A stretch of DNA of 37,288 nt, from the NCBI GenBank assembly GCA_022561985.1, contig JADFQE010000012.1, positions 1 through 37,288 of the forward strand. Reading direction: 5' to 3'. Source of the DNA: Chloroflexota bacterium (GTDB taxonomy: Bacteria; Chloroflexota; Dehalococcoidia; Lucifugimonadales; Australimonadaceae). Position numbers and translations under genes: made by a program. Under the pieces are notes generated by a model that saw only the letters and a list, made by a program, of their open reading frames with translations, was not told the origin of the DNA and ran no database searches. Below are positions 21,065 to 30,039 of the stretch, in pieces (positions within the stretch are counted from its first letter, which is position 1; each line of letters starts with the position of its first letter).

Positions 21065-21209
21065 CAAGGGCGCAGCCCTTGACCCACATGGGGTAGCGCT
21101 GCCGAAGGCGGGCCACCGCCGTCATGCATAGCGACCTGGCCAGCGCTCGATCAGCGGTCTTCGTGGACCGCGTTCTGCGCTGGCGAGTGGGTCAAGGGCC
21201 ACGCCCTTG
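21065..21209. repeat. Full-length 145-bp inverted-terminal-repeat element (copy C)
   Basis: Ends CAAGGGCGCAGCCCTTGACCCAC ... GTGGGTCAAGGGCCACGCCCTTG; interior aligns to copies A/B in reverse orientation (TCGCCAGC, GAGCGCTGGCC, GCGGTGCTACCC-like blocks). Confidence 0.85.
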
Positions 21210-21688
21210 TGTGAGCCTTCGGCGCGGAGCCACGCGCTCACGTCTTGGTGCAGCGCTTGTACGTCGAGCCCGGCGAACGCCGGCATGAACGGCGCGAGGT
21301 AGGCCAGGGCGTCGGTCAGCAGCTTCGTGGCGCCGCGGGGGTTGGCGCGCCGCGCGTGCTCGAAGCCGGCCCCAAGCTTGGTGAGCGCCAGGCAGAAGAG
21401 CCGGTGCGGGTATCCCGTTTCGCGCCAGAGCGCCTCCCACGTCTCGTGGCTCTCGAAGAACCTCCCGTCGTTGAACTCGGCCACCCCGCGCGCGAGCGTG
21501 CTGCTCCGCGTCAGCGCGGCGCCGTCGCCGACGCTGCCCCCGCTCCCACCGGAACGATCGAGGTAGGCGAGCCAACGACGGTCGAGCGCGGGCCGCTCGC
21601 CTGGAGCGCCGTGCTGTGGCGGGGGTTGCGTCACGTCGACGCGCCTGCGAGCTCCACCGCGTGCCCCCTGTCGTGGGTCAAGGGCCAC
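21122..21688 (-). CDS. DUF309 domain protein
   Basis: RGVAEFNDGRFFESHETWEALWRETGYPHRLFCLALTKLGAGFEHARRANPRGATKLLTDALAYLAPFMP. C-terminal ~30 aa are encoded inside repeat copy C; start uncertain. Confidence 0.85.
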   Translation of the reverse strand: MALDPRQGARGGARRRVDVTQPPPQHGAPGERPALDRRWLAYLDRSGGSGGSVGDGAALTRSSTLARGVAEFNDGRFFESHETWEALWRETGYPHRLFCLALTKLGAGFEHARRANPRGATKLLTDALAYLAPFMPAFAGLDVQALHQDVSAWLRAEGSHKGVALDPLASAERGPRRPLIERWPGRYA

Positions 21689-21694
21689 GCCCTA
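21673..21694. repeat. Solo end of the 145-bp repeat family (copy E) between ccmE and the DUF309 gene
   Basis: gtgggtcaagggccacgcccta, overlapping the ccmE stop codon. Confidence 0.75.
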
Positions 21695-22156
21695 GGTGGA
21701 GAGGTTCTCGACTTCGAGGGATTGGTATTTCGAGGGGCATTTGACGTAGACGCGGTCGGCCACGAACAGGCCGCCGTCCTCGTACGTGCCGCCAAGCACG
21801 ATCTCGGTGTGTGGGTTGAAGAAGAGGTCCGGCAGGACGCCGTCGTACGTCGCGCTCACCTGGACGCCGTTCTCCGTCAGCAGGAAGTGCGCGAGGGTGG
21901 ACGTGCCGCCCTCCCGCTTGAAGCTGTCGTCCACGAGCTTGCCCTTGACCTGCACGGACTGCGTGACGCCCGAGGGCCCGAGCTCGACGAGCTCGTCCAC
22001 GGTCAGGTAGAAGGACTGCGCGCTCTCGAAGGCGGTGTAGCCGAAGTAGCCGAACGCCGCCAGCATGATGGCGGCGAGGATCATCACCTTGCGCCCGCGC
22101 GTGAGCACGCTGGCGCTTCTGGGACCCTGGGGTGGCTCGGCGGGTGTGTACTGCAT
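21692..22156 (-). CDS. ccmE: Cytochrome c maturation protein CcmE (heme chaperone)
   Basis: FESAQSFYLTVDELVELGPSGVTQSVQVKGKLVDDSFKREGGTSTLAHFLLTENGVQVSATYDGVLPDLFFNPHTEIVLGGTYEDGGLFVADRVYVKCPSKYQ. Confidence 0.88.
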   Translation of the reverse strand: MQYTPAEPPQGPRSASVLTRGRKVMILAAIMLAAFGYFGYTAFESAQSFYLTVDELVELGPSGVTQSVQVKGKLVDDSFKREGGTSTLAHFLLTENGVQVSATYDGVLPDLFFNPHTEIVLGGTYEDGGLFVADRVYVKCPSKYQSLEVENLST

Positions 22157-22166
22157 GGTCCTTATC

Positions 22167-23270
22167 CTAACGCACTCCGACGAACTCGCCCATCTTTGAC
22201 ATGAGCCCGCGCCCCGCGAGCTCCGCCTCGTAGAGCCGGAGGATGCGTGGGTCCTCGTCCTCGTATTCGACCTGGCGCCCGCCGTCCTTCTCGGACCGGT
22301 CCATGTTCTCGTAGCCGACCATCTTCGAATCGAGCACGGGGTAGCGGGCACCGCCGAAGCCGAACACGAGGTACCGCGAGACGCCGTCCGACACGTTGAA
22401 GTGCTGGTGGTACGTGGGCCCGTCGGGCGGCGCGTAGAGCGTGCCCGGCTTCCAGTCCACGCGTACGGCATCGACCGGGTCCTCGCCGGCCTTCCACAGC
22501 AGCGAGTAGCCCTCGCCCGTCACGCAGAAGATGTGCGCGCCCGCGTTGTGGGCGTGCGCTTTTTTGTACGTGCCCTGCTGGAACTCCGAGATGTGGCAGT
22601 GCATGGAGCTGTCGCCCAGGAGGAACTGGATGTTGTTCCCCGCGGCGCCCCTGGCCTTCCAGACCGGCAGCTCGAAGTTGACGAGGTCCGGCACGAAGTT
22701 CGTCTCCCACTGGTGGCGCCCCGGCTTGACCTCGCGGAACTCGCCCTCGCCCTCGAAGTACCGCTCCACGCTCGCGCGCTCCGGGAACGTGAACGGGTTC
22801 TCGAAGATGAACTCCGGCCGGTGGAAGATGTTGAAGATGATGGGCAGGTCGGTGACCGCCGCCAGCCTGGCCGGCTCCGTCCCCGATCCGTTGAAGATCT
22901 GGTGCTTCGCGTTCATGGGGATGCCGAATATCGCCGTCGGCCCCCACTCGAAGGAGTGCTTCTTGCCGTCGGGCCCCTCGATCACGGTCGCGCCGCGGCC
23001 GGAGATCACGTGCATGAGCTCGTCGTGCATGTGCTGCTCGGGCTTGAGCTCCCCGCCCGGCGGTATCTCGACCACGTACGCGGACAGGAAATCGCTCTTG
23101 CCCGCCAGGTGCACGTAGGTGCCGAGCCCACCGAGGCGCTCCCACGGCTCGACGGCGATGGTGTGGCAGTCGATCGAGTAGGCCTCGACCACCGGGATGC
23201 CCTCTGTCTTGAGGAAGTCCCGGTAGGGGAACACGCCGTAATACGGGTTGAAGTCGATCTCGTCGCTCAT
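22167..23270 (-). CDS. Bicupin protein, copy 1
   Basis: MSDEIDFNPYYGVFPYRDFLKTEGIPVVEAYSIDCHTIAVEPWERLGGLG...PEQHMHDELMHVISGRGATVIEG...KKAHAHNAGAHIFCVTGEGYSLLW; two cupin-like halves. Confidence 0.82.
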   Translation of the reverse strand: MSDEIDFNPYYGVFPYRDFLKTEGIPVVEAYSIDCHTIAVEPWERLGGLGTYVHLAGKSDFLSAYVVEIPPGGELKPEQHMHDELMHVISGRGATVIEGPDGKKHSFEWGPTAIFGIPMNAKHQIFNGSGTEPARLAAVTDLPIIFNIFHRPEFIFENPFTFPERASVERYFEGEGEFREVKPGRHQWETNFVPDLVNFELPVWKARGAAGNNIQFLLGDSSMHCHISEFQQGTYKKAHAHNAGAHIFCVTGEGYSLLWKAGEDPVDAVRVDWKPGTLYAPPDGPTYHQHFNVSDGVSRYLVFGFGGARYPVLDSKMVGYENMDRSEKDGGRQVEYEDEDPRILRLYEAELAGRGLMSKMGEFVGVR

Positions 23271-23394
23271 CGCTGTTTGTCCTGACTGTGCGCCTACGCT
23301 ATCGCTCCGGCTCCGGACTGAAGCGGCACGCGCTGCTTCGGCTGTCTTGCCCGGCGCACGCCGACATCTGTCGGTCCCCGACGCCGCGCCCCTT

Positions 23395-24516
23395 TTATGG
23401 GTCAAGGGCTGTGCCCTTGCCCTCCATGAACTCGTGCATGCGCGAGCGGAGGCCCCGCTTCTCCAGCTCCTGCTCGAAGAGCACGTGGATGCGTGGGTCC
23501 TCGTCCTGGTACTCGATCTGCATCCCCCCCGCCGTCTCGGACTTGTCCATATTCTCATAGACCCACATCTTGGAGTCGAGCACCGGATACCGCGACCCTC
23601 CGAAGTCGAACACCAGGTAGCGCGACTGCTGTTCCGCCACGTTGAAGTGCTGGTGGTACGTGGGCCCGTCCGGCGGCGCATAAAGCGTGCCCGGCTTCCA
23701 GTCCACGCGCACGGCATCGACCGGGTTCTCACCGGCCTTCCACAGCAGCGAGTAGCCCTCGCCCGTCACGCAGAAGATGTGCGCGCCCGCGTTGTGTGCG
23801 TGCGCCTTCTTGTAGGTGCCTTCGAAGAACTGGGAGATGTGACAGTGCATCGAGCTGTCGCCGAGCAGGAACTGGATGTTGTTCCCCGCAGCCCCGCGGG
23901 CGATCCACGGCGGCAGCTCGAAGTTGACGAGGTCCGGCACGAAGTTCGTCTCCCACTGGTGCCGTCCCGGCTTGATCTTGCGGAACTCGCCCTCGCCCTC
24001 GTAGTACCGGTCGGTCTCCGCGCGCTCCGGGAACGTGAACGGGTTCTCGAAGATGAACTCCGGCCGGTGGAAGATGTTGAAGATGATGGGCAGGTCGGTG
24101 ACCGCGGCGAGCCTGGCGGGCTCCGTCCCCGATCCGTTGAAGATCTGGTGCTTGGCGTTCATGGGGATGCCGAATATCGCCGTCGGCCCCCACTCGAAGG
24201 AGTGCTTCTTCCCGCTCGGGTCCTCGATCACGGTCGCGCCGCGGCCGGAGATCACGTGCATGAGCTCGTCGTGCATGTGCTGCTCGGGCTTGAGCTCGCC
24301 GCCCGGCGGTATCTCGACCACGTAGGCGGACAGGTAATCGCTCTTGCCCGCCAGGTGCACGTAGGCCCCGAGCCCACCCAAGCGCTCCCACGGCTCGACG
24401 GCGATGGTGTGGCAGTCGACAGCGTAGGCCTCGACCACGGGGATGCCCTCGCTCTTCACGAAGTCCCGGTAGGGGAACACGCCGTAGTACGGGTTGAAGT
24501 CGGTCTCGTCGGCCAT
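23395..24516 (-). CDS. Bicupin protein, copy 2 (tandem paralog)
   Basis: MADETDFNPYYGVFPYRDFVKSEGIPVVEAYAVDCHTIAVEPWERLGGLGAYVHLAGKSDYLSAYVVEIPPGGELKPEQHMHDELMH; near-identical to copy 1 over most of its length. Confidence 0.82.
   Translation of the reverse strand: MADETDFNPYYGVFPYRDFVKSEGIPVVEAYAVDCHTIAVEPWERLGGLGAYVHLAGKSDYLSAYVVEIPPGGELKPEQHMHDELMHVISGRGATVIEDPSGKKHSFEWGPTAIFGIPMNAKHQIFNGSGTEPARLAAVTDLPIIFNIFHRPEFIFENPFTFPERAETDRYYEGEGEFRKIKPGRHQWETNFVPDLVNFELPPWIARGAAGNNIQFLLGDSSMHCHISQFFEGTYKKAHAHNAGAHIFCVTGEGYSLLWKAGENPVDAVRVDWKPGTLYAPPDGPTYHQHFNVAEQQSRYLVFDFGGSRYPVLDSKMWVYENMDKSETAGGMQIEYQDEDPRIHVLFEQELEKRGLRSRMHEFMEGKGTALDP
23397..23419. repeat. Solo end of repeat family (copy F)
   Basis: atgggtcaagggctgtgcccttg; encodes the bicupin-2 C-terminal GKGTALDP*. 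Confidence 0.8.
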
Positions 24517-24661
24517 GCTGAGCTCCTGACTGTGCGCCTACGCTTCGCTCCGGCTCCGGACTGAAGCGGCACGCGCTGCTGCGGCTGTCTTGCTCGGCGC
24601 ACGCCGACGCTCCTCGGTCACTCGCGGGCGCCGACATCTGTCGGTCTACGACGTGTGCCCC

Positions 24662-24964
24662 TTATGTGGGTCCAGGGCTGTGCCCTGGGGCTGTGCCCTG
24701 CTCGCGCGCGGCCAGGGTGTGCTGGAGCTCCTCGAGGTCTCGACGCAGCTCGCGGTTCTTCCGTCCGACGTAGAAGGCGTACGCGAAGAAGCCTGCCCAT
24801 GCGAGCGCCGTGCCGGCGAGCAGGAAGCCCAGGTTGCTCTCGCCGGGCGCGCCCTGCGGGGCGACTGCGGCAAGCGCGGTGAGCGGTGCGAGCGCCACGA
24901 GGGCGGTCACGTATGCGGCCGTGGTGAGTTTCCTGATCAACGTCGGTGTCCTCCTCTTTCGCAC
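24662..24964 (-). CDS. ccmD: CcmD-like small membrane protein
   Basis: ESNLGFLLAGTALAWAGFFAYAFYVGRKNRELRRDLEELQHTL, single TM, between ccmC and the bicupins; tail ..GTAPGHSPGPT* is repeat-derived. Confidence 0.65.
   Translation of the reverse strand: MRKRRTPTLIRKLTTAAYVTALVALAPLTALAAVAPQGAPGESNLGFLLAGTALAWAGFFAYAFYVGRKNRELRRDLEELQHTLAAREQGTAPGHSPGPT
24666..24690. repeat. Solo end of repeat family (copy G) with a partial internal duplication
   Basis: gtgggtccagggctgtgccctggggctgtgccctg; overlaps ccmD 3' end. Confidence 0.75.
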
Positions 24965-24982: not shown

Positions 24983-25696
24983 CTACCCCACGCGGGCCCG
25001 CAGCTCATCGAGCGCCTGCTCGTCCGCGCGCTGCGCGGTGCGCTCGCGGAACAGGTATGCGAACACGAGCATGAACGTGAGCGCGCTGAAGTACAGCGTC
25101 GTCCGCATCTCCGGCGCGAGTCCGCCTGATTCCGCGAAGGGCCCCGTGACGAGCTCGGGGTGCAGCGAGCGCCACAGCTCCGCCGCGTAGTACACGATCG
25201 GGACGTCCACGAAGCCGACGATGCCGACGACGGCCGCCCAGCGGGCGCCGCGGCGCTTGTCGGGAGCGTACGCGCGCACCATGAGATACCCGATGTAGAT
25301 CAGCCACAGCACGAAGGTCGTCGTCAGCTTCGCGTCCCACACCCACCACACGCCCCACACCGGCTTGGCCCAGATCGCCCCCGTGACCATCGCGACCGTG
25401 AGGAACAGCATGCCGACCTCGCCGGCGGCGTACGCGCGGCGGTCCCAGACCTCGGTGCGCTTCACCAGGTACATGATGCTGGAGACGAAGACGATGAAGA
25501 ACGCGAGGAACCCGACCCAGACGGTCGGGACGTGGAAGTAGAAGAGGCGCTGCACGATCCCCATGACGCGCTCGGTGGGCACGTACTGGAAGATCAGGTA
25601 CAGGTCGGTGAAGAGGAAGGCCGCGCCGACGATGAGCAAGGCGGGCTGGACGAGCCCCGTCTTTCCGGGTGCGCGAGTGGTTCCAACGGTCGCCAC
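24983..25696 (-). CDS. ccmC: Heme exporter protein CcmC
   Basis: QRLFYFHVPTVWVGFLAFFIVFVSSIMYLVKR...IWAKPVWGVWWVWDAKLTTTFVLWLIYIGYLMVR (tryptophan-rich WGVWWVWDAKLT motif). Confidence 0.93.
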   Translation of the reverse strand: MATVGTTRAPGKTGLVQPALLIVGAAFLFTDLYLIFQYVPTERVMGIVQRLFYFHVPTVWVGFLAFFIVFVSSIMYLVKRTEVWDRRAYAAGEVGMLFLTVAMVTGAIWAKPVWGVWWVWDAKLTTTFVLWLIYIGYLMVRAYAPDKRRGARWAAVVGIVGFVDVPIVYYAAELWRSLHPELVTGPFAESGGLAPEMRTTLYFSALTFMLVFAYLFRERTAQRADEQALDELRARVG

Positions 25697-25698
25697 AC

Positions 25699-26373
25699 TC
25701 ACTCCTCGAGCACGAACTCGAACGCCCAAGATGATAGCACAAGGAAGGCGATATCGAAGGCCAGCATCAGGCGCAGCCACAAGTCGATGTCCCCCCATCC
25801 ACCACCATCGAGCAGCAGCGACGTGGCCGAAACCGCGGCGATGATGACGGGAAGCGCGACGGGCAGGAACAGCACCGGCAGCAGCAGCTCCCGCGCCCGC
25901 GTGTGCACCGCGATCGCCGAGAACAGCGTGCCGACCGCCGCCATGCCCAGGGTGGCAAGCACCGCCGTGACCGCGAAGGGGAGCGAGAGGAACGAGAGGT
26001 CGTGGAGCACCACGAACACCGGGAGCATCGCGGCCTCGACCACGATCATGATCGTGAACGCCCCCAGCAGCTTGCCGAGATAGATGGCCTCCCGCGGCAC
26101 CGGCGCGAGCAGCAGCGCCTCCAGCGTCCCCCGGTCGCGCTCGAGCACGAAGGTGCGGTTCATCCCGACGATGCCCGCGAAGACGTAGGCGACCCACACC
26201 ATGCCGGGGCCGATCAGCGCGACCACCTGCGGCGCCGGGTCGAAGGTGAACTTGAAGATGAACGCGACGACGAGCGCGAACATGAATACACCGGAGAGCG
26301 TCTCGCGCGTGCGCGCCTCGATCATGACGTCCTTCCGGTAGATGGCCAGCGCCGAGCGGACGTACGCGCTCAC
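25699..26373 (-). CDS. ccmB: Heme exporter protein CcmB
   Basis: AIYRKDVMIEARTRETLSGVFMFALVVAFIFKFTFD...VFAGIVGMNRTFVLERDRGTLEALLLAPVPREAIYLGK. Confidence 0.9.
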   Translation of the reverse strand: MSAYVRSALAIYRKDVMIEARTRETLSGVFMFALVVAFIFKFTFDPAPQVVALIGPGMVWVAYVFAGIVGMNRTFVLERDRGTLEALLLAPVPREAIYLGKLLGAFTIMIVVEAAMLPVFVVLHDLSFLSLPFAVTAVLATLGMAAVGTLFSAIAVHTRARELLLPVLFLPVALPVIIAAVSATSLLLDGGGWGDIDLWLRLMLAFDIAFLVLSSWAFEFVLEE

Positions 26374-27116
26374 GGCGCCACCTCGGACTGGCGCGTGACG
26401 ATCGCGCGGACATCCGCCGGGGTCACGTCCGTCGATCGGCCCGCCAGCGCGACGCGTCCCTCCGCGAGCACGACGATCTGGTCGGCCAGCGCCAGGCCGC
26501 GCTCCATCCCGTGCGTGGTCATGACCACCGCCGCACCGCCGTCGCTGACGCCCCGGACCAGCCGGTCGAGCATCGCCAGTCCGGACACATCAAGCCCCGT
26601 TTCCGGCTCGTCCAGCAGCAGGACCGAGGGGCGGTGCAGCAGCGCCCGCGCGATCGCAAGGCGCTTCTGCATGCCGTTCGACAGCCCGCGGACCCGGCGG
26701 TCCGCCCACGCGCTCCCGCCGACGTCCTCCAGCACCTGGCCGATGCGCGCCCGCGCGTCCGCCACCCCGTAGAGCCGCGCGTAGAAGGCAAGGTTCTCCC
26801 CGGCCGTGAGGTCGTCGTAGAGCAGCGGCTGGTGGCCGACGTAGCCCACGATGGAGCGCAGCCGCGCCGCGTCCTTGGCGCGGTCGAAGCCGCCGACCAC
26901 GACGGTGCCGGCATCAGGCCGCGCGAGGGAGGCGATGACGCGCAGCAGCGTGCTCTTGCCGGCGCCGTTGTGGCCGAGCACCGCGAGGGTCTGGCCCCAC
27001 GCGACGCGCAGATCGACGTCGATCAGCGCCCGCGTCGTGCCGAAGGTCTTCGAGAGTCCGGAAACCGCGATGGCCATCGCGGGGCCGGCGGCAGCGGCCG
27101 GTGGTGTCTCTTGCAT
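26370..27116 (-). CDS. ccmA: Heme exporter ATP-binding protein CcmA
   Basis: ABC ATPase: GHNGAGKSTLLRVIASL, GLSNGMQKRLAIARALLHRPSVLLLDEPETGLD; overlaps ccmB. Confidence 0.9.
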   Translation of the reverse strand: MQETPPAAAAGPAMAIAVSGLSKTFGTTRALIDVDLRVAWGQTLAVLGHNGAGKSTLLRVIASLARPDAGTVVVGGFDRAKDAARLRSIVGYVGHQPLLYDDLTAGENLAFYARLYGVADARARIGQVLEDVGGSAWADRRVRGLSNGMQKRLAIARALLHRPSVLLLDEPETGLDVSGLAMLDRLVRGVSDGGAAVVMTTHGMERGLALADQIVVLAEGRVALAGRSTDVTPADVRAIVTRQSEVAP

Positions 27117-27251: not shown

Positions 27252-27872
27252 GTGGAGTTACTGAGACAGATCGGGAACGCGCTCGGCATGCGCAACATCC
27301 CCGAGGGCATGGAGGACCGCGTGCCACCGGGGCAGTACGTCACGCCCAAGATGCCCGTGATGAACATGGGCTTCGTCCCCAAGGTGCCGGTCGAGACCTG
27401 GACGCTCCAAGTCTTCGGCCAGGTCGAGGAGCCGGTGGAGCTGGACTGGGAGGGGTTCTTGGCCCTCGCGCAGCAGACCGAGACCGTCGACTTCCACTGT
27501 GTCACGCAGTGGAGCCGGCTGAATGTCGGCTGGGAGGGCGTGCCGGCCGGCGTCGTGCTCGACCTCGCGCGGCCGAAGCCGGATGCGCGGTTCGTGATGC
27601 TGCACTGCGCCGACGGCTACACGACGAACCTCGCCCTCGACGCGGTGCGCGCCCCGGACGCGCTGTTCGCGCACCGGCGGGACGGCGCGCCGCTGGAGGC
27701 CGCGCACGGCGCACCCGTCCGGCTGGTGGTGCCGGCACGCTACGGCTGGAAGAGCGCCAAGTGGGTGACGGGCGTGGAGCTGCTGACGGACGACGCGCCA
27801 GGCTTCTGGGAGCAGAACGGCTACCACATGCGCGGCGACCCGTGGGCCGAAGAGCGCTTCGCAAGGGCATAG
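27252..27872 (+). CDS. Molybdopterin-dependent oxidoreductase (sulfite oxidase-like Moco domain)
   Basis: PVETWTLQVFGQVEEPVELDWEGFLALAQQTETVDFHCVTQWSRLNVGWEGVPAGVVLDLARP...HCADGYTTNLALD...VRLVVPARYGWKSAKWVTGVELL; GTG start. Confidence 0.87.
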   Translation: MELLRQIGNALGMRNIPEGMEDRVPPGQYVTPKMPVMNMGFVPKVPVETWTLQVFGQVEEPVELDWEGFLALAQQTETVDFHCVTQWSRLNVGWEGVPAGVVLDLARPKPDARFVMLHCADGYTTNLALDAVRAPDALFAHRRDGAPLEAAHGAPVRLVVPARYGWKSAKWVTGVELLTDDAPGFWEQNGYHMRGDPWAEERFARA

Positions 27873-28006
27873 CCCTTGACCCACTCGCCAGCTTGGAACG
27901 ACGGTTGTTCACGGGCGCGGCTGAGCGCTGGCCGGGATGCTGTTGGACGGCGACGGCACGCCACCATGAGCGGTGCTACCCGATGTGGGTGCGGGGCGGC
28001 GCCCTG
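27862..28006. repeat. Full-length 145-bp inverted-terminal-repeat element (copy A)
   Basis: caagggcatagcccttgacccac ... gtgggtgcggggcggcgccctg; interior nearly identical to copy B. Confidence 0.92.
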
Positions 28007-28007
28007 C

Positions 28008-28508: not shown

Positions 28509-29045
28509 GTGAACGACGAAACGTTCAGCTCCATCGTGGAGCAGTACACCAGCTACGCCTACAACATCGCGTACCGGATGATGCACGATCCGGCCGATGC
28601 GGACGACGTGGTCCAGGACGCCTTCCTGTCGGCCTACCGGGCGCGCGAGCGGTTCCGTGGCGACGCGCAGGTGACGACGTGGCTGTACCGCATCGTCGTG
28701 AACGCCGCCCTCCAGAAGATACGCAAGGAGCGCAAGCCGCAGCGCATGGCCCAGGCGTCCGTCGACGACGTCGAGATCCGCGATTGGAGCCCCGGCCCCG
28801 AGTCGCAGACGCTCAACGAGGAGCTGCGCGAGAAGCTCGAGGAGGCGATCGGCGAGCTGTCCGAGGACTTGCGAACGGCGGTCGTCCTCCGCGACGTGCA
28901 GCAGCTCACGACCGAGGAGGCCGCAACCATCGTCGGCATCAGCGTCCCCGCCTTCAAGGCGCGCCTCCACCGCGGCCGCGTCAACCTCCGCGAGCAGCTC
29001 GACACCTACGTCCACCAAGGCCAAGGGCAAGGGCACAGCCCTTGA
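28509..29045 (+). CDS. ECF-type RNA polymerase sigma factor
   Basis: DADDVVQDAFLSAYRARERFRGDAQVTTWLYRIVVNAALQKIRKER...ELSEDLRTAVVLRDVQQLTTEEAATIVGISVPAFKARLHRGRVNLRE; C-terminus ..GHSP* is repeat-derived. Confidence 0.93.
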   Translation: MNDETFSSIVEQYTSYAYNIAYRMMHDPADADDVVQDAFLSAYRARERFRGDAQVTTWLYRIVVNAALQKIRKERKPQRMAQASVDDVEIRDWSPGPESQTLNEELREKLEEAIGELSEDLRTAVVLRDVQQLTTEEAATIVGISVPAFKARLHRGRVNLREQLDTYVHQGQGQGHSP

Positions 29046-29172
29046 CCCACTCGCCGGCTGAGAACGGCGGTTGTTCACGGGCGCGGCTGAGCGCTGGCCG
29101 GGATGCTGTTGGACGGCGACGGCACGCCACCATGAGCGGTGCTACCTGATGTGGGTGCAGGGCTGCGCCCTG
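29028..29172. repeat. Full-length 145-bp inverted-terminal-repeat element (copy B)
   Basis: caagggcacagcccttgacccac ... gtgggtgcagggctgcgccctg; ends exactly at the korB stop codon. Confidence 0.92.
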
Positions 29173-30039
29173 CTAGAGGTCGTAGGCGGCTAGGAGGGTG
29201 GCGGTGTCCTTCTGGGATGCGCGCTTGTTGAGCTCGTCGGCGCCTGCGTCGAAGGACGGCCGGGACTTGTCCTGGTAGATCAGGCCCAGCGGCACGCCGC
29301 CTTGCTCGATGATCCCGCGGGCCTGGGCGCGGTCCGACGGGTCGTGGTCGGCGGGGATCGTCCATGCGGAGGGGTCGATGCCCTTCTTCTTGTTGCCCTT
29401 GAGGACCTCGAAGGTATCGTTGTAGGTCGTGCAGGGCGACTGGACGTGGACGATGGAGAAGCCCTGGTGCTCCATGCCGTCGAAGATCAGCTTCGCGAGG
29501 TCGCGCGGCTTGACGGAGTAGCTGGACGCGATGTACGTCACGCCGAGGGTGAGGTAGAGCGCCAGCGGGTCGATGGGCGTCTCGAGCTTCCCGTAGGGCG
29601 TCGAGCTCGTGACCGTTCCCTGGACGGTGGTCGGTGACGCCTGGCCCTTGGTGAGGCCGTAGACGCTGTTGTCCATGATCACGGTGCAGATGTTCAGGTT
29701 GCGGGCGGCTTGGGGCCCGATGTGCTCGGCGCCGATGCCGAGGAAGTCGCCGTCGCCGGCCACCGTCACCACGTTGAGCTCAGGCCGGGCCATCTTCACG
29801 CCGAGCGCGAGGGGCAGCGAGCGGCCGTGGATGCCGTGGAAGCCGTAGGGCTGGTCGCCCTCCAGCAGGTGCACGAGGTTGCCGGAGCAGCCGATGCCGG
29901 CGACCACGACGTTGTTGGCCATGGGCGTCTCGTACTTGACGTTCCATTCCGTCATGGCCAACTCAAGCGCGCGCCGCACGCCGAAGTCGCCGCAGCCGGG
30001 GCACCATGTGAAGTCGTATTCGGGGTTGTTCGCGCTCAT
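29173..30039 (-). CDS. korB: 2-oxoacid:ferredoxin oxidoreductase beta subunit
   Basis: DFTWCPGCGDFGVRRALELAM...GIGCSGNL...HGRSLPLALGVKMARPELNVVTVAGDGDFLGIGAEHI...MDNSVYGLTKGQASPT (TPP-binding). Confidence 0.9.
   Translation of the reverse strand: MSANNPEYDFTWCPGCGDFGVRRALELAMTEWNVKYETPMANNVVVAGIGCSGNLVHLLEGDQPYGFHGIHGRSLPLALGVKMARPELNVVTVAGDGDFLGIGAEHIGPQAARNLNICTVIMDNSVYGLTKGQASPTTVQGTVTSSTPYGKLETPIDPLALYLTLGVTYIASSYSVKPRDLAKLIFDGMEHQGFSIVHVQSPCTTYNDTFEVLKGNKKKGIDPSAWTIPADHDPSDRAQARGIIEQGGVPLGLIYQDKSRPSFDAGADELNKRASQKDTATLLAAYDL

Follow-up and report, generated by a model that had tools for sequence, protein, structure and literature searches.

The locus described here raises the question of why two tandem bicupin genes lie within a cytochrome c maturation (ccm) operon, and whether their products take part in cytochrome c maturation or share the locus by position. 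The window (the whole stretch of DNA analysed, 37,288 nucleotides) comes from the 2.4-Mb MAG of a marine SAR202 bacterium (Chloroflexota); close matches were found in other SAR202/Dehalococcoidia Chloroflexota MAGs (among them SAR202 cluster bin16, which is MPMJ01, and OSU_TB62) and more distant ones in SAR202-VII-2. ORFs and profile searches showed the minus-strand order ccmA-ccmB-ccmC-ccmD-bicupinA-bicupinB-ccmE-DUF309, which bears out the order given in a preliminary description. All of the features below are on the minus strand. ccmA (26370..27116, start approximate) matches the Pfam ABC ATPase family and scores above the TIGR01189 cut-off, ccmB (25699..26373) matches PF03379 (3.9e-37), and ccmC (24983..25702, start approximate) matches Cytochrom_C_asm (2.4e-34) and lies below the TIGR01191 cut-off. 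The gene for a ccmD-like small membrane protein (24662..24964, start approximate), which had no match in a Pfam search of the window ORFs, was identified by its position and by homology to the ORF between ccmC and the bicupin gene or ccmE in relatives. ccmE (21692..22156) encodes 154 aa (Pfam CcmE, 2.7e-18), and the DUF309 gene (21122..21688, start uncertain) matches PF03745 (5.9e-17).

Between ccmD and ccmE, bicupinA (23395..24516) encodes 373 aa and bicupinB (22167..23270) encodes 367 aa that are 87% identical to bicupinA. Both ORFs match Cupin_2, the first domain above the cut-off, and both were placed in the tree, bicupinA in its A lineage. A 521-aa ORF that begins at 23732 is an upstream overrun of bicupinB, whose likely start is the ATG at 23270. 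The TAG of bicupinB and the ATG of ccmE are separated by 10 nt containing AAGGA, the spacing that had been estimated earlier. This junction supports the suggested co-transcription with ccmE for genus g1, in which the two genes are probably carried on one transcript.

The preliminary description had seen no ccmF or ccmH in the window; both were located on contig C107 of the same genome (ccmH, PF03918, 1.1e-28; ccmF, CcmF_C, 4.4e-59), and system I is therefore complete but split. There they adjoin the alternative complex III genes NrfD, ActD and cytochrome c (L082:6941-12189). In the heme motif of CcmE, Cys replaces His (KCPSKY), and this CxxxY type is a known bacterial and archaeal variant (PMC9084895). 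The CxxxY CcmE of this genome coexists with CcmD and CcmH, unlike the archaeal CxxxY systems, which lack both (PMC9084895).

The gene-neighbourhood survey showed that the order ccmD-bicupin-ccmE recurs in G001, G002, G004, G005, G006, G009, G013 and G014, with one to three bicupin copies in the interval over four genera (one in G002, one in G005 and three in G006). Since the same order with 78–93% identical bicupins recurs in related genomes, the embedding is not due to chance. The place of the bicupins in the ccm operon is a real gene-order feature, conserved within one bacterial family and only there, and the insertion can serve as a stable, family-specific gene-order marker. The gap between bicupin and ccmE is small in G005 and G006, and the 10-nt junction is found in three genomes of genus g1. 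Other members are looser or incomplete: the arrangement in genus g3 has kilobase gaps with other genes, G011 carries the ccmD, bicupin and ccmE parts on two contigs with a methyltransferase between bicupin and ccmE, G015 has a bicupin fragment adjoining ccmE at a contig end, and in G012 the bicupin lies 12 kb from ccmD, with ccmE far away.

G007, a family member with no strong bicupin, has ccmD and ccmE adjacent and no bicupin between them, and the same was seen in ten genomes of nine other families (adjacency in these 11 genomes meaning matched parts no more than about 140 nt apart); this is the arrangement of most bicupin-free relatives. Six further genomes have ccmE with no recognised ccmD nearby, and a methyltransferase occupies the ccmD-ccmE interval in G008. 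The adjacency in bicupin-free relatives suggests that a bicupin gene probably entered the ccmD-ccmE interval at an early stage of this family's evolution. Outside the family, G022 has a 60% ortholog at a distance of about 7.6 kb from ccmE (its ccmC is on a different contig), and a 64% ortholog in G080 stands beside another bicupin and transporter genes; neither is in a ccm operon. The situation that the preliminary description had set against its own reading, namely bicupins only in unrelated contexts with ccmD and ccmE adjacent there, thus does not hold within the family and largely holds beyond it. The Ccm system of the lineage often occurs without the bicupin: CcmE is present in 54 of 59 relatives, most of them without a ccm-type bicupin (E <= 1e-110), which was found in 11 of the 16 family genomes and in almost no others. 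In G010, ccmC, ccmE and the ccm-type bicupin are all missing together. This co-absence was considered as a sign of functional linkage and rejected, because CcmF is present there and one missing contig explains it equally well.

The repeat search showed that bicupinA and bicupinB are a tandem duplication of a unit of about 1.25 kb, which includes a 75-nt leader (24545..24619 for bicupinA and 23302..23376 for bicupinB, 91% identical). In the tree, the A and B lineages are older than the genera, with moderate support for the A clade (87/93). Patches of near identity between the two copies in their first halves (99–100% over 120–480 nt in G014 and 94–97% in the window genome) suggest gene conversion in this part of the genes. 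A regulatory RNA in the duplicated leader was also considered and rejected as a conserved RNA: the leader has no Rfam match, and just a short part of it recurs in G001 and none in other relatives. No sigma-70-like promoter was found in the region by a scan that is weak for this organism.

Two other kinds of repeat were observed in the window. A REP-like palindromic element, CAAGGGC-n-GCCCTTGACCCA, occurs at about ten sites (13977, 21065, 21188, 21674, 23398, 24667, 27862, 28355, 29028 and 29152), mostly intergenic or at gene ends, and a search of other contigs (180 kb) at a stricter setting gave nine matches. This element also codes for the final residues of bicupinA (GTALDP) and of ccmD. A 147-nt direct repeat (27861-28007 and 29027-29173, 95% identical) flanks a stretch with a zinc-finger (anti-sigma-like) gene and a sigma-factor-like gene.

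The search of the source genome showed that 61 stretches match the bicupin, corresponding to about 46 near-full-length proteins (43 that span 299 or more of the 373 residues and three in two pieces). Thus a 2.4-Mb genome holds some 46 bicupins of one family, several of them beside Rieske oxygenases (for example L188-L207), and several relatives have similar numbers of candidates. The ccm-linked bicupins form one clade of 21 sequences with full support (100/100). Because almost 50 look-alikes are scattered over the genome, the pair is more likely to lodge in the operon than to belong to the cytochrome machinery. Among the 42 immediate neighbours examined around 25 other bicupins of this genome are six Rieske/LigXa-type oxygenases, three each of dienelactone hydrolases and amidohydrolases, and one LigB. 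About one Rieske gene would be expected among the 42 if such genes make up about 2% of all genes, the value reported for MPMJ01, this being an estimate from the neighbours of 25 bicupins.

BicupinA is 84% identical to its counterpart in G009, compared with 57–64% for ccmA, ccmB, ccmC and ccmE and 79% for DnaK. High conservation was rejected as proof that the gene acts in Ccm: elsewhere in the same genomes the paralog L012, which has no ccm link, is 78–83% identical between genera and as widespread and conserved as the ccm-linked bicupins. Conservation therefore does not depend on the ccm position. The ccm-linked bicupin of G005 (L079:1186-2289, gene 43% GC) shares 92–93% protein identity with that of G009, from a genus of 66% GC, where DnaK is 76% and ccmA 43% identical. 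A recent transfer of this gene was rejected, since third positions agree at 26% and GC differs (43 versus 66%); an old transfer or extreme constraint may account for it.

The AlphaFold model of bicupinA (pLDDT 90.5) has two sets of barrel strands; together with the Cupin_2 matches and the fold matches to bicupins, it places the proteins among the bicupins of the cupin superfamily. Solved bicupins were matched at TM about 0.46 only (query-normalised TM-scores below 0.5 for the listed structures), with oxalate decarboxylase and MncA at the top. H239, H288 and H290 of the C-terminal cupin do not vary in the family alignment, and H241 and H246 are shared by every ccm-type copy and by most of the others. 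In the N-terminal cupin the aligned residues are E78, H80, E84 and H123, with H82 and H87 beside; both G014 copies have Lys at 84, and many paralogs carry Tyr or Phe at 123. The classical iron site of gentisate dioxygenases sits in the N-terminal cupin, and the alignment does not show its three-His set there. A single bicupin searched against PDB sequences gave nothing significant. The sequence-profile search gave gentisate 1,2-dioxygenase 3bu7 first (5.5e-9), followed by weak matches to the glyoxylate-induced protein 1sq4 (1.3e-5) and phosphoglucose isomerases. Among 52 family members, 33 match the 5-aminosalicylate 1,2-dioxygenase model weakly (best 1.2e-10) and four match (R)-mandelonitrile lyase weakly, and the scores against the NCBIfam gentisate/5-aminosalicylate 1,2-dioxygenase equivalog (27.1 and 31.3 bits) are far below its cut-off of 650 bits.

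Taken together, the bicupins are, on balance, probably cytosolic metal-dependent catabolic enzymes of a ring-cleavage type that share the ccm locus by position and are not Ccm components. The two products would be cytosolic and belong to an extensive set of catabolic paralogs in SAR202 group VII. A divalent metal, presumably Fe or Mn, would be held in the C-terminal cupin by the His cluster and would support an O2-dependent ring-opening or related step on an organic acid, as in gentisate-type dioxygenases. A single ancestral insertion between ccmD and ccmE early in the family would have been followed by duplication into the A and B copies and their retention under strong purifying selection. 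The bicupin would share the locus with ccmE, and in genus g1 probably the transcript, with no part in cytochrome c maturation. A catabolic ring-opening or related role is favoured because of the 3bu7 and aminosalicylate profile matches, the catabolic neighbours and the ring-cleaving dioxygenases of SAR202-VII-2. The earlier proposal of a metal-dependent dioxygenase therefore holds as a candidate function. Against it, gentisate-type dioxygenases are matched weakly, and mostly within a single cupin domain. The ccm linkage has also outlasted genus-level divergence and the G022 ortholog is still near ccmE, which counts against a strict passenger, since such a gene need not stay.

The same profile data bear on a catabolic enzyme of other chemistry, a decarboxylase, hydrolase, lyase or isomerase with Mn or Zn, which we regard as rather unlikely: the top fold matches and the weak matches to 1sq4, phosphoglucose isomerases and (R)-mandelonitrile lyase would fit it, but in sequence-profile comparisons gentisate and aminosalicylate dioxygenases score best, and the paralogs have Rieske, LigB and dienelactone hydrolase genes next to them. 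It is likewise unlikely that the genes are neutral passengers at an insertion-tolerant site, with their own promoters and no transcriptional link to ccm. The methyltransferases of G008 and G011, the gaps of genus g3 and the leaders duplicated along with the genes would agree with this, whereas the 10-nt spacing in genus g1, the small gaps in G005 and G006 and the negative outcome of the weak promoter scan argue against it. This reading overlaps the favoured one, which takes no position on transcription beyond g1.

It is very unlikely that the bicupins were recruited in this family as dedicated accessories of cytochrome c maturation, handling iron or heme in the cytosol beside CcmABCD, for example. 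The position kept in four genera with one to three copies, the close ccmE junction in genus g1 and the joint absences in G010 could be read in this way, but G010 is equally explained by a missing contig, most CcmE-bearing relatives have no ccm-type bicupin, foreign genes occur in the same interval, the arrangement is loosened in genus g3, and the non-ccm paralog L012 is as conserved. The heme- or redox-linked accessory role raised in the preliminary description is likewise not supported, given the roughly 46 paralogs, the aromatic-catabolism neighbours of copies outside the operon, the nearest orthologs in other families outside ccm operons, the distance between bicupin and ccmE in G012, and inspection by eye, in which no signal peptide or membrane segment was apparent. 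Highly improbable, too, is the recruitment of a catabolic bicupin into the operon to serve CcmABCD and CcmE as a partner in the cytosol, related to iron or heme, with its two specialised copies (A, SQFFEG; B, SEFQQG) kept functionally separate. The locus is a true conserved gene-order feature, and its cause is likely an ordinary one.

The little-noticed part is the bicupin expansion itself, and the locus is best used as a pointer to a large uncharacterised family. Genomes of SAR202 group VII contain tens of bicupins, frequently next to Rieske oxygenases. These bicupins could provide a second arm of the proposed attack on resistant dissolved organic matter, in which rings are opened once hydroxylation or demethylation has taken place. 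Proof of ring cleavage by a single member would give dozens of marine genes per genome a probable function. For SAR202-VII-2, ring-cleaving dioxygenases, the gentisate type among them, have been reported (PMC6123686).

Compared with known systems, the genome resembles cytochrome c maturation system I (CcmABCDEFH) in having ccmA-F and ccmH, and differs in holding the ABCDE and HF parts at two loci; described system I includes no bicupin. With oxalate decarboxylase and MncA, the proteins share the bicupin architecture and the best fold matches, but identity is 13–16%, and one of the 52 members matches TIGR03404, weakly. They are like gentisate/5-aminosalicylate 1,2-dioxygenases (3bu7, NF049978) in their two barrels, similar length, His-rich metal motifs, best profile matches and the aromatic-catabolism neighbours of the paralogs, and unlike them in that the strongest His cluster is C-terminal and the first cupin has E78/H80/E84/H123 in place of the 3-His set. 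The group VII paper describing the sponge symbiont MPMJ01 (G013), with 62 ring-hydroxylating dioxygenases (PMC6946804), does not name a cupin expansion, since a full-text literature search for SAR202 and cupin together gave PMC6123686 only. The bicupin family nevertheless parallels that ring-hydroxylating dioxygenase expansion (PMC6946804): it belongs to the same lineage, and its members often stand beside Rieske oxygenases.
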